From Chlorobiota bacterium (GTDB lineage Bacteria > Bacteroidota > Ignavibacteria > OLB7), in NCBI GenBank assembly GCA_016788565.1, contig JAEUSP010000112.1, forward strand, positions 1 through 64,000: a DNA stretch of 64,000 nucleotides. Reading direction: 5' to 3'. How positions within the stretch are numbered: the first letter of the stretch is position 1; each line of letters begins with the position of its first letter. The position numbers and the translations under genes are program-made. Below the pieces are notes generated by a model. The model had not been told where the DNA came from and ran no database searches. It was given only the letters and a program-made list of their open reading frames with translations. This document shows positions 1 to 20,996 of this stretch, piece after piece.

Positions 1-2169
1 GTAGGTGCTGACCGAATCCCATGCTTCGCTGATCGTGCGGAAGTGTTCGCCAAATCCAACGCGGTACGTCCCTGCGTACCGGGCTTTCACGTTAAAGCAC
101 CATGTCGTTGAGTTGTTCTCCGTCACCGGGTCTTGTGGGTCAGTTACGGTGACGGTCATGCAGTACTCTCCCGATCCATTCGGAATGAAGTCAGGGAACT
201 CCTGGCGGACGATGCCACCATTGCTTGGCACGCTGAGGATGGTTGCTTGGCGTGTGTACACGGTTTGCCCAGCAGCGTTTTTAATCACCACGGTTGCCGG
301 GACGTTGGTCGCGTCGGCGATGCCGTTGTTGTTGATGTTCGCAAACACCGGAATCCGGCGGCCATCTGGATAGGACTGGAACTCACGTGGTGAGTGTGGT
401 CCGGCAGCAGCTGGAAGTGCTGTCAACTCAATCTCGTAGTTGGCATCGAATGGGAAGCCAAGAGATTTCCAGTTTGGCAGTGTATCGTTCAGACGGTTTT
501 CGTCTTTATCCAAATTGGTGTAGATCTTGACGTAGTAGCGGCCTGGCTTGGTTGGAGTCCAAGTTGGCATGTTGATGTCGCGGAAGCTGGACGGGTCCCA
601 CGTTCCTGGGACGATCGTTTGTCCTTCGCCGACTTTGTTGCCGTTCTCGTCAAAGATCCAATATCCGACCGGAACATCTTTGACGGCGTTAAATCCGATG
701 TTCAGGAAGCGGGCTTCGATTGGGACACCGATACCGAGTGGATATTGGTATTTCAGCGGCAGCTTGTTCTCGTATGGTTGCAGCAAATTCCAGACAGCCA
801 CATCGAACGGCTTGGAGATAAAGAACTGGCCGGTGAGGGTATCGTTCGAAATGTCTTGCTCCACATCCAACATTGAGATCACCTTAACGGTGTAGATGCC
901 GGAGAGATCGGTCAATGGAGCCGTGATTGACGGAGAGAGAGTGACCTGTGATTTTCCTGTTTGTGCAGCAGGTGTTGTGAACGCTGTGCCAGTCACGGTA
1001 GCAACCGGGTTGGTCAGGTCTTGGTCACGGTAAATGAGAGCCTTCACTGGAACATTCTGGCGAATGTTCTTGCCGATGTTCACGAACTGAGCATTAATGG
1101 TGATCGTCGAACCAGCCAGATAGACGTTTGCTTTCCGTTCTGGAGTAAACCAGAGGGAATCTGGTGAAACGTCATCCAACACCGGGGTCATCCGATAACC
1201 AATCTGCTGGCCATCTTGCGTCGGGAACGCATAATGCCAATACGGCGAGCCGATGTAGTACGTGAAGTTTGCCGCATAACTCATGTAATACGGATAGGTC
1301 TCTGGGAAATTTGTCCATCCGTATGCAGCGATATTCATGGTACGCGCTGTAGTAATAGCAACGGTGTCGGGGACTTGTGCTGGATCGCACATCACCATAA
1401 ACTTGCTTTCGTCGTTTGCGGGTGGTGGGTTGGTTCCATAGTTCGTGTTTTGACCCAAATTCTTGATACCGACCAGCGCGCCATAACCGAATACATAATT
1501 CAGATCAGGCTTAGTGCGGTTGATCGAGTTCGGGCCATAGAAGATTTCGATTTTACCAGATGGTGACTCATACAGCTTACACTGGAAATTCCCAGGATTA
1601 GTGCTGGGATAGTATGAGCCAGCAACACGCCACTCGAAGGTCATCACGCGGTTTGGTGCGGTTCCGTCAACACGGTAATAGACACCACCGTCTGGACTGC
1701 TGACACCGCTTGAACGCAGGTCGCTCCAGTACACCCATAACACACGGTCATCGTAGGAATACCATGATGGATTCCAGATACCTGTTTGGTACTGAAGATT
1801 TGGGTAGGCCGAGCCATAGCCCCAGCCATAGCCAGCATAATTAGCTTGGTTAAAGCCAATGTACCCGGCGACATCCACTTGGACAACTGAGTAGTAGTTA
1901 CCCAAGAAAAAGAACGGGAAGCCGATGTTACCGCCTTGATTTGCGGTAATATCGAAGTTGTACGTTTGCGAACCACCATACATATAGGCAGTATTAGGAA
2001 CAAGTATTGTTCCCGCTGAGCCAATAATGGTTTGGTAGTTGTTGGCAATCCGCTGCGGCAGATAGTTGTTCCAGGGAACTTTCACCTGTGGAGGGGTGGT
2101 CTGAGCCATCAGCCCCGCCGAACTAACAATCAGCAGCATTAATACCGTAAGGACTTGTCTTACGCGCAT
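1..2169 (-). CDS. Large secreted protein with CARDB/Ig-like repeats, C-terminus beyond window
   Basis: The minus frame is open over all 723 codons from an ATG at 2169 to position 1, with no stop, so the gene continues past the left edge. The N-terminus MRVRQVLTVLMLLIVSSAGL ending in MAQ is a signal peptide. Residues about 30-260 are rich in aromatic residues and glycine, like the N-terminal modules of Bacteroidota adhesins. Three CARDB-like Ig modules follow, with starts near residues 346, 476 and 603, each with a phrase like FVNIGKN or FLNIGFN. Near residue 698 the text GTYRVGFGEHFRTISEA resembles the opening of a further beta-sandwich or beta-helix module common in T9SS cargo. A T9SS sorting domain would be expected beyond the edge but cannot be seen. 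It is probably a cell-surface or secreted adhesin; the function is unknown. Confidence 0.85.
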   Translation of the reverse strand, partial: MRVRQVLTVLMLLIVSSAGLMAQTTPPQVKVPWNNYLPQRIANNYQTIIGSAGTILVPNTAYMYGGSQTYNFDITANQGGNIGFPFFFLGNYYSVVQVDVAGYIGFNQANYAGYGWGYGSAYPNLQYQTGIWNPSWYSYDDRVLWVYWSDLRSSGVSSPDGGVYYRVDGTAPNRVMTFEWRVAGSYYPSTNPGNFQCKLYESPSGKIEIFYGPNSINRTKPDLNYVFGYGALVGIKNLGQNTNYGTNPPPANDESKFMVMCDPAQVPDTVAITTARTMNIAAYGWTNFPETYPYYMSYAANFTYYIGSPYWHYAFPTQDGQQIGYRMTPVLDDVSPDSLWFTPERKANVYLAGSTITINAQFVNIGKNIRQNVPVKALIYRDQDLTNPVATVTGTAFTTPAAQTGKSQVTLSPSITAPLTDLSGIYTVKVISMLDVEQDISNDTLTGQFFISKPFDVAVWNLLQPYENKLPLKYQYPLGIGVPIEARFLNIGFNAVKDVPVGYWIFDENGNKVGEGQTIVPGTWDPSSFRDINMPTWTPTKPGRYYVKIYTNLDKDENRLNDTLPNWKSLGFPFDANYEIELTALPAAAGPHSPREFQSYPDGRRIPVFANINNNGIADATNVPATVVIKNAAGQTVYTRQATILSVPSNGGIVRQEFPDFIPNGSGEYCMTVTVTDPQDPVTENNSTTWCFNVKARYAGTYRVGFGEHFRTISEAWDSVSTY

Positions 2170-2422
2170 AGATGCATCTCCTATTGTGAATGATTGAGTA
2201 TTGATAAGGCCTTTCACTGTAGCTATCTCTATTGGATCGAATGGCGTTGTTGAGGGGGGCAGGTACATCGTGCATCCATGATAGTTTCCGATGCCTGATG
2301 ACCCGAGAACCCAAGCACGAGAAAAAGGTTTCCATGCGAAGTGATTACTTTGCGATAGTTACATTTTTTTGAGCAAGGGTGCGTCATTCAACACGAGAAT
2401 TCTCTTTTTTCAAAGAGAAAAA

Positions 2423-2504
2423 CCTCCACCCTTGACTGGAACCGCAATCAAGGGTGGAGGGGTCAAACCCACAGAATAGCAGTAAAAACAGAGCTTTTAC
2501 TGCT
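2423..2504 (+). repeat. Double-hairpin element, copy 1
   Basis: Hairpin 1 has perfect 13-bp arms (2423-2435 and 2448-2460) around a loop containing CTGGAACCGCA. Next comes the 15-nt linker GTCAAACCCACAGAA (2462-2476). Hairpin 2 has perfect 10-bp arms, AGCAGTAAAA (2478-2487) and TTTTACTGCT (2495-2504). The same loop core and linker recur about 200 bp downstream with entirely different stem sequences, which points to conservation of structure. The plus orientation is assumed from the downstream gene. It could be a structured RNA leader, a small RNA or a mobile palindrome family. Confidence 0.65.
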
Positions 2505-2621
2505 TCTATAAACCTGATAACGAAACACAGAGTAAAAACATCACACCGTGACTTCAAAAAATTATTGGCTTGTAGGAATCACATGGGACGATGCTTATTC
2601 CAGAGGCATTGATTGCCCAAA

Positions 2622-2703
2622 ACTCCTTAGCCCTGGCTGGAACCGCAGCCAGGGCTTAAAGAGTCAAACCCACAGAACCATACAAGGTATATGCTGATGG
2701 TTC
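2622..2703 (+). repeat. Double-hairpin element, copy 2
   Basis: Hairpin 1 has perfect 10-bp arms AGCCCTGGCT (2629-2638) and AGCCAGGGCT (2647-2656), around the same core CTGGAACCGCA found in copy 1. An outer ACTC/GAGT pairing extends the stem. The identical 15-nt linker GTCAAACCCACAGAA lies at 2663-2677. Hairpin 2 has 7-bp arms GAACCAT (2675-2681) and ATGGTTC (2697-2703). It ends 169 bp before the ATG of the LVIVD gene, so it may lie in that gene's 5' leader. Confidence 0.65.
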
Positions 2704-2872
2704 CGTAACTGAGATAAAGAGCCTTTAATTTTAGAAAGGTCGCAGGACAAGAAGGCCAAAATTGTAACGCCCCTTATTGCTACTGTTCCTTGTTCTCCAT
2801 TGGTTACACGGTTATCGTTGGGGTGTCTTCGCACTGAATCAGTCAAGAGATAATTTTAAGCGGAGGAACTCC

Positions 2873-19949: not shown

Positions 19950-20996
19950 TTACTGGAACCGCACCGAAGCGGTGACGGTGTTAATCAGCCCCAACGTGCT
20001 GTGGGGGCGGATGCCGTAATCAATTTGGCCCAAGAACGAACCGGACTCATACTTCAGCCCAACGCCACCGCTGATGTTGTACGCATCGGGGGAACCAACC
20101 AACATCCCAACCCGTGCGGCAAGGAAGTTGTTCCACACATACTCAGCCCCGATCGAGACGTGCTCGCTGGAAGCAGAGCTGGTATTGAATTCAAGCGCGG
20201 CCAGCAGTGAGTTCATCTCATCCCCTTCAAGGATATCCGAAGAAACACCGGCGCGGAACGTCAGCGGCAACGAGGCTTCAAGAGCTTCCAGCTGAACGTC
20301 GGGGCTTTGGTTTCCCGTCACAGGGTCCACTTGCCCACGCGAGGTGAGCTGCGACCCGGTGTATTTGATTGGAGATGAAAGGTTCTGCACGCCGAAGCCA
20401 AGTCGCATCCCCAAAATTCCTGGTTTGTACATGGTGCCAACATCGAACGCGATGCCGGAAGCCGAGACGTTGGCAATCCCCAAGTTCACCAGTTTCCCGG
20501 TGACACCGAAGGAGAACTGGTCGGTAAGTTGGCCGGCAAAGCTAATGCCGAAGGCAAGGTCGGTAGCACTGTACCGCCCGCCGGTTCCTTCTTGTTGAAA
20601 AATCGTGGTTTCGTCAATATCGCCACTGCTGTAGGCGTTGGCGCTGATGCCACCTTTGTAGTTTTCCCCTAACGGGAATGTTACTCCAGCAAAGTTGTGT
20701 GTGGTCCCAGCGAACAGCGATCCGAAGCTGTAGGCAGCACTTGCCCCTGGCGATAGAGTAATGCCGGCGGGGTTCCAGTACAGCGCGGTAGGGTCATCGG
20801 CAATGCCGGTGAAGCCGCCCCCCATTCCGATGGCACGCGCGCCAACGGGAAGGGTCAGCATCACCCCGGTTCCGGCACCGATCTTCGAGACCTCCTTTGT
20901 GGTTAACACACCAGTATTGTCCTGTGCAACGGCAGTGCTGGCAAAGATGCCGCCAGCGATTGCCGCAAGGATGCAGAGTCTGTATGCCTGTTTCAT
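19950..20996 (-). CDS. PorV/PorQ-family outer-membrane protein
   Basis: This is a 348-residue beta-barrel of the PorV/PorQ (UPF0164) kind. The ATG at 20996 gives the signal peptide MKQAYRLCILAAIAGG ending AVAQ; an in-frame start at 21080 would spoil it. The family signature is VGARAIGMGGGFTGIADDPTALYWNPAGI. Alternating beta strands follow to a C-terminal ASVRFQ with terminal aromatic spacing typical of barrels. In T9SS, PorV shuttles cargo from the translocon to the sortase, while other family members are uncharacterised. Its place right after the giant secreted protein suggests a role in that protein's export or display, which is inference. Confidence 0.88.
   Translation of the reverse strand: MKQAYRLCILAAIAGGIFASTAVAQDNTGVLTTKEVSKIGAGTGVMLTLPVGARAIGMGGGFTGIADDPTALYWNPAGITLSPGASAAYSFGSLFAGTTHNFAGVTFPLGENYKGGISANAYSSGDIDETTIFQQEGTGGRYSATDLAFGISFAGQLTDQFSFGVTGKLVNLGIANVSASGIAFDVGTMYKPGILGMRLGFGVQNLSSPIKYTGSQLTSRGQVDPVTGNQSPDVQLEALEASLPLTFRAGVSSDILEGDEMNSLLAALEFNTSSASSEHVSIGAEYVWNNFLAARVGMLVGSPDAYNISGGVGLKYESGSFLGQIDYGIRPHSTLGLINTVTASVRFQ

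Follow-up and report, generated by a model that had tools for sequence, protein, structure and literature searches.

Two tandem units in the window (the whole 64,000-nt stretch of Chlorobiota bacterium DNA analysed here) are real and far more structured than chance. The spacer that holds them is flanked by a minus-strand gene with its start codon at 2169 and the plus-strand LVIVD gene starting at 2873. Our best explanation, to be taken as tentative, is that the units encode tandem trans-acting sibling small RNAs (sRNAs) on the minus strand. A paralogue of the minus-strand gene, located on contig C9, would be their likely target, and they would act by blocking translation of its mRNA. The observations behind this explanation are that the element is present twice, that it folds on the minus strand and has U-runs there, that it is complementary to the C9 leader, and that the target-side motifs are conserved in a second species; from these we infer transcription, strand, target and direction of regulation.

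Units 1 and 2 can be aligned without gaps over 47 nt, with 79% identity and an offset of 201 bp, at the place and spacing given in the preliminary description. Each holds the 11-nt loop core CTGGAACCGCA (2436-2446 in unit 1, 2637-2647 in unit 2) and, exactly 15 nt further on in both, the 15-mer linker GTCAAACCCACAGAA, read on the plus strand (2462-2476 and 2663-2677). Both elements are identical between the units, as had been reported, and the exact 15-mer occurs in the 4.58 Mb genome only at these two places. Outside the loop and the linker about 11 of 21 aligned columns are identical, so the stems, described earlier as completely different, are only partly so, while their continued pairing was described correctly. 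Hairpin 2 has the claimed 10 bp in unit 1 and 7 bp in unit 2, and hairpin 1, given as 13 and 10 bp, has 13 bp followed by a C.A mismatch and 2 more bp in unit 1, whereas in unit 2 it has 11 bp, all perfect. Beyond the units the comparison at offset 201 drops to background, and the units are thus not simply a long recent repeat. Two isolated matches were set aside: the sole near-match of the linker in the genome, on contig C80, lies in coding-looking sequence without a hairpin, and an exact match of the loop core at 19953 of the window has no linker. The features are as follows, in window coordinates:

2416..2524, minus strand: unit 1, candidate small RNA core (from the fold; the true 5' end is probably further upstream)
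2463..2517, minus strand: unit 1 hairpin P1, with the linker as its 3' arm and a G.U-rich lower helix (fold and alignment)
2462..2476, minus strand: unit 1 constant element TTCTGTGGGTTTGAC, the proposed seed, identical in both units and complementary to the paralogue leader
2423..2460, minus strand: unit 1 terminator hairpin of 16 pairs with loop CGGTTC (terminator scan and fold)
2439..2444, minus strand: unit 1 conserved 6-nt loop CGGTTC, GAACCG on the plus strand (sequence)
2418..2422, minus strand: unit 1 U-run TTTTT (sequence and terminator scan)
2617..2721, minus strand: unit 2, candidate small RNA core (fold of 2617-2716)
2664..2714, minus strand: unit 2 hairpin P1 (fold and alignment)
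2663..2677, minus strand: unit 2 constant element TTCTGTGGGTTTGAC, the same as in unit 1
2629..2656, minus strand: unit 2 terminator-like hairpin of 11 perfect pairs with loop CGGTTC and a bulged extension to about 2667/2620 (fold)
2640..2645, minus strand: unit 2 conserved 6-nt loop CGGTTC (sequence)
2619..2622, minus strand: unit 2 short U-run TTTT, weak and without a call in the terminator scan (sequence)
1..2169, minus strand: adjacent gene downstream of the units, secreted, with a signal peptide and weak CARDB/MG2 similarity, running off the contig

In regard to the strand, folding of the plus strand gave -41.4 kcal/mol for unit 1 and -37.3 kcal/mol for unit 2 (z of -6.5 and -5.3), and folding of the minus strand gave -53.0 and -47.6 kcal/mol (z of -8.6 and -6.2). 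The gain of 10-12 kcal/mol comes largely from G.U pairs. Shuffled sequences favour the minus strand by 5-6 kcal/mol anyway, and the observed difference was reached by 12 and 34 of 300 shuffles, respectively; part of the gain is therefore due to base composition, and the preference is only moderate after this correction. Other features point in the same direction. The C.A mismatch in hairpin 1 of unit 1 becomes a U.G pair on the minus strand, where the constant UUCUGUGGGUUUGA also pairs with the 5' flank, namely with UCAGGUUUAUAGAA in unit 1 and GUUACGGAA in unit 2. In this P1 helix the arm is fixed and its partner changes at two positions, from A to G opposite U and from U to C opposite G, so that pairing is kept on the minus strand and broken on the plus strand. 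The unit 1 hairpin followed by TTTTT was called as an intrinsic terminator on the minus strand, its weaker counterpart in unit 2 was not called, and nothing comparable to these U-runs follows the hairpins on the plus strand. A promoter scan of positions 2100-2950 recognised no sigma-70-like promoter. We conclude with moderate confidence that each unit corresponds to a minus-strand RNA of about 105 nt, composed of a 5' hairpin and a terminator. The earlier proposal of a structured RNA with paired stem changes and fixed elements is thus well supported, while its strand and anatomy were probably misread: the linker between the hairpins is unpaired on the plus strand only, and on the minus strand it forms the 3' arm of the other hairpin. 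The case illustrates that a repeat should be interpreted as structured RNA only once its strand is established.

Another minus-strand hairpin, TTCTCTTT-GAAA-AAAGAGAA, is located at 2400-2419 of the window, directly after the unit 1 terminator. Among the perfect hairpins of at least 7 bp in the window and 400 kb of its own genome, GAAA/TTTC is by far the commonest loop (17 of 261), and it is likely the house style of terminators in this genome.

According to the proposed mechanism, each sRNA would start with a 5' hairpin carrying the constant UUCUGUGGGUUUGAC as its 3' arm, followed by a Rho-independent terminator whose loop is the constant CGGUUC. As nothing but pairing is required of the stems, they would be able to undergo compensated drift, while the arm and the loop would stay fixed because both base-pair with the target. 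The most likely target would be the mRNA of the surface-protein paralogue located downstream of alaS on contig C9, where the arm would cover CAAACCCACAGGA at the Shine-Dalgarno site and translation would be blocked. Provided that the GAACCG-loop hairpins upstream of the C9 gene are transcribed, the terminator loop could additionally contact them loop to loop through six pairs. That RNAs encoded beside one copy of a surface-protein gene silence its paralogue through both contacts, the arm over the ribosome-binding site and the loop-loop pairing, is a doubtful extension of the proposal. A pair of sibling RNAs implies at least two homologous copies, which are present at the DNA level, and a stable fold with an intrinsic terminator, which both units have, that of unit 2 being weak. 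No Hfq was found in the genome.

Within the N-terminal 390 residues, the C9 paralogue is 70% identical to the adjacent minus-strand gene. An orthologue-like gene of the sister species G001 (contig C66) occupies the same place after alaS. The window gene is nearer to this sister-species gene (77%) than to its own C9 paralogue (70%), and yet the sister-species gene is found in the C9 context; the window and G001 genes both lie near contig ends. Such a pattern suggests recombination or gene conversion between the paralogues.

The leaders of the C9 gene and of its G001 counterpart both read ACTAACAAACCCACAGGAGCATCGGTAATG, and CAAACCCACAGGA at the C9 Shine-Dalgarno site forms 13 bp with UUCUGUGGGUUUG of the units. 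When linker duplexes were ranked over 304 leaders, the C9 leader, a target found after the fact, was the best and the sister-species orthologue equalled it (-21.3 vs -17.8 kcal/mol for the next one). The opening costs, about 9-13 kcal/mol for the RNA and about 3-4 kcal/mol for the mRNA, are more than repaid by duplexes of about -26 kcal/mol, and the energy balance is thus favourable. The C9 leader did not rank high for whole-unit duplexes, computed by a method that ignores internal structure. There are 12 AAACCCACAG sites in the genome: 2 in the units, 9 in open frames and 1 at the C9 ribosome-binding site. Of random 109-nt pieces of the genome, 0.13% gave an 11-nt match within the 60 nt that immediately precede the C9 start codon. 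The units would accordingly carry a conserved seed predicted to be complementary to the translation start of a target.

The spacer between alaS and the surface-protein paralogue contains two hairpins with the identical loop GAACCG (G000:C9:20821-20846 and 20904-20929), complementary to the terminator loop CGGUUC of the units. The one with the structure GCGATTTT-GAACCG-AAAATCGC is apparently the alaS terminator, and the second, CTTCTT-GAACCG-AAGAAG, stands out as 19 nt perfectly conserved between C9 and G001 within a poorly conserved stretch of the spacer. A hairpin model, built from these same hairpins, finds only four strong GAACCG-loop hairpins in the genome (the two units and the two of the C9 spacer) and one in G001, and a direct count in a 464-kb sample gave no other with a stem of at least 5 bp; on this count, the idea that terminators of this genome commonly have the loop GAACCG was rejected. 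Between the hairpins and the C9 start, a promoter-like block, TTTGAC-16 nt-TACAAA, could be read by eye; since it lies downstream of the hairpins, these may not be part of the C9 mRNA, and the loop-loop contact becomes more doubtful. G001 has the target-side motifs and lacks the RNA units, which means that these motifs do not depend on the RNAs in their role, or at least in their history.

Considering distribution, the units do not represent a broad conserved RNA family. A covariance model built from the two units, which by construction matches them with 126.5 and 103.8 bits, finds only the units in their own genome, apart from the weaker reverse strand of unit 1 and one match with E = 0.37. 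The preliminary description had looked to further copies in related genomes, and counted their lack as evidence against it; none was found in four family members, 294 genomes of the class or 395 of the phylum, the larger runs using stricter filters. The covariation therefore rests on two copies, and the earlier claim is in part weakened by its own standard. Degenerate patterns searched in GTDB contigs and IMG/VR gave three matches, about the chance expectation for the first pattern and none supported by the covariance model; plasmids gave no match, and phages a single 28-nt match with E = 0.3. That no known family fits agrees with our Rfam search at a permissive threshold, where nothing exceeded any family's gathering score. 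The best match, RybB (23.1 bits against a cut-off of 40), reflects the terminator shape only. The plus-strand TGGAACCGCA resembles the T-box sequence UGGNACCGCG. The T-box leader (RF00230) is, however, absent among Rfam matches up to E = 10, and the units have neither stem I nor an antiterminator, the resembling motif being placed in a hairpin loop.

Several other explanations have to be weighed against sibling sRNAs. It is also possible, with a modest chance, that the units are a plus-strand or double-stranded cis-element common to several genes. The GAACCG hairpin and CAAACCCACAG would then form a single regulatory motif, placed in the same orientation upstream of the C9 gene and, twice, of the LVIVD gene, and its reader would be either a protein that binds RNA or DNA or else an RNA. 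On their plus strand the units agree in sense with the C9 leader, the hairpin precedes CAAACCCACAG at both loci, and the sister species, devoid of the units, keeps the GAACCG hairpin. Complementarity to a homologous strand is also homology, so sequence alone cannot separate an sRNA target from a shared cis-element. Nevertheless, the U-runs and G.U pairs favour the minus strand, the distance between hairpin and linker is about 130 nt in C9 and 15 nt in the units, and the linker is not positioned at the LVIVD ribosome-binding site. Moreover, the LVIVD gene does not accompany the element elsewhere: the upstream spacers of its orthologues in three family members carry none, and the informative partner is the paralogue of the minus-strand gene instead. 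With a comparably small chance, the units could be ordinary terminators or hairpins of a duplicated intergenic stretch, without a regulatory role and with their common bases left over from a recent duplication. The presence of only two copies in one species and the commonness of intrinsic terminators would suit such an origin, but apart from the loop and linker, and in the sequence that separates the units, similarity is near random, while the loop and linker are identical and recur at a second locus, and the stems are still paired despite their changes.

A role in cis for the minus-strand RNA is less probable again. A long 5' UTR of the gene at 2169 could hold the units as tandem attenuators or riboswitch-like leaders, with a ligand or an RNA on the constant arm controlling the terminators. 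This would explain why both terminators lie upstream of that gene in the same direction and why the constant arm directly precedes them. On the other hand, terminator 1 is about 250 nt from the start codon, and the leaders of the paralogue and the orthologue lack a comparable element in that orientation. Nor could a conserved antiterminator partner be seen, and none of the riboswitch or leader families in Rfam scored above its threshold. A small coding gene, finally, is very improbable. Both units read FCGFD-x5-CGSSQG on the minus strand in a common frame that spans the loop and the linker, and three stem differences are synonymous; a 57-aa frame with a TTG start runs through unit 1 (2384-2557 of the window, minus strand). 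However, the frame of unit 2 has no ATG, GTG or TTG, conserved bases upstream are out of frame between the units due to a 4-nt gap, and Pfam gave no match.

As sibling sRNAs, the units would join two known kinds of regulators, adjacent siblings that block ribosome-binding sites and multicopy repressors of surface proteins. In Neisseria gonorrhoeae, the adjacent siblings NgncR_162 and NgncR_163 are 78% identical, share a similar stem-loop fold, and use a loop and a single-stranded connector to cover the ribosome-binding sites of the mRNAs that they repress (PMC9973317). The likeness lies in two adjacent copies with a similar fold, and no sequence relation is claimed; the gonococcal RNAs fold into three stem-loops, are demonstrably expressed and act on many metabolic targets, whereas the units have one predicted target and are known from sequence. 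The FopS family of Bacteroides thetaiotaomicron comprises multicopy paralogous sRNAs that block the translation starts of mRNAs for SusC-like surface proteins (PMC11697453). It has 14 members, bound by the protein RbpB, while the units, likened to it by description, are two tandem copies with a proposed seed placed in a helix arm next to the terminator. With intrinsic terminators the units share the GC-rich hairpin and the U-run on the minus strand, clear in unit 1 and weak in unit 2, but in the units the loop and the upstream arm are conserved from copy to copy, and termination by itself would not call for this.

If the proposed explanation is right, a poorly studied lineage would have a pair of regulatory RNAs whose target is named and can be tested, and pairing with that target would show why the loop and the connector stay fixed while the stems change. 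If the two-point contact is true as well, this lineage, in which no Hfq was found, would switch between paralogous surface proteins by means of RNA.
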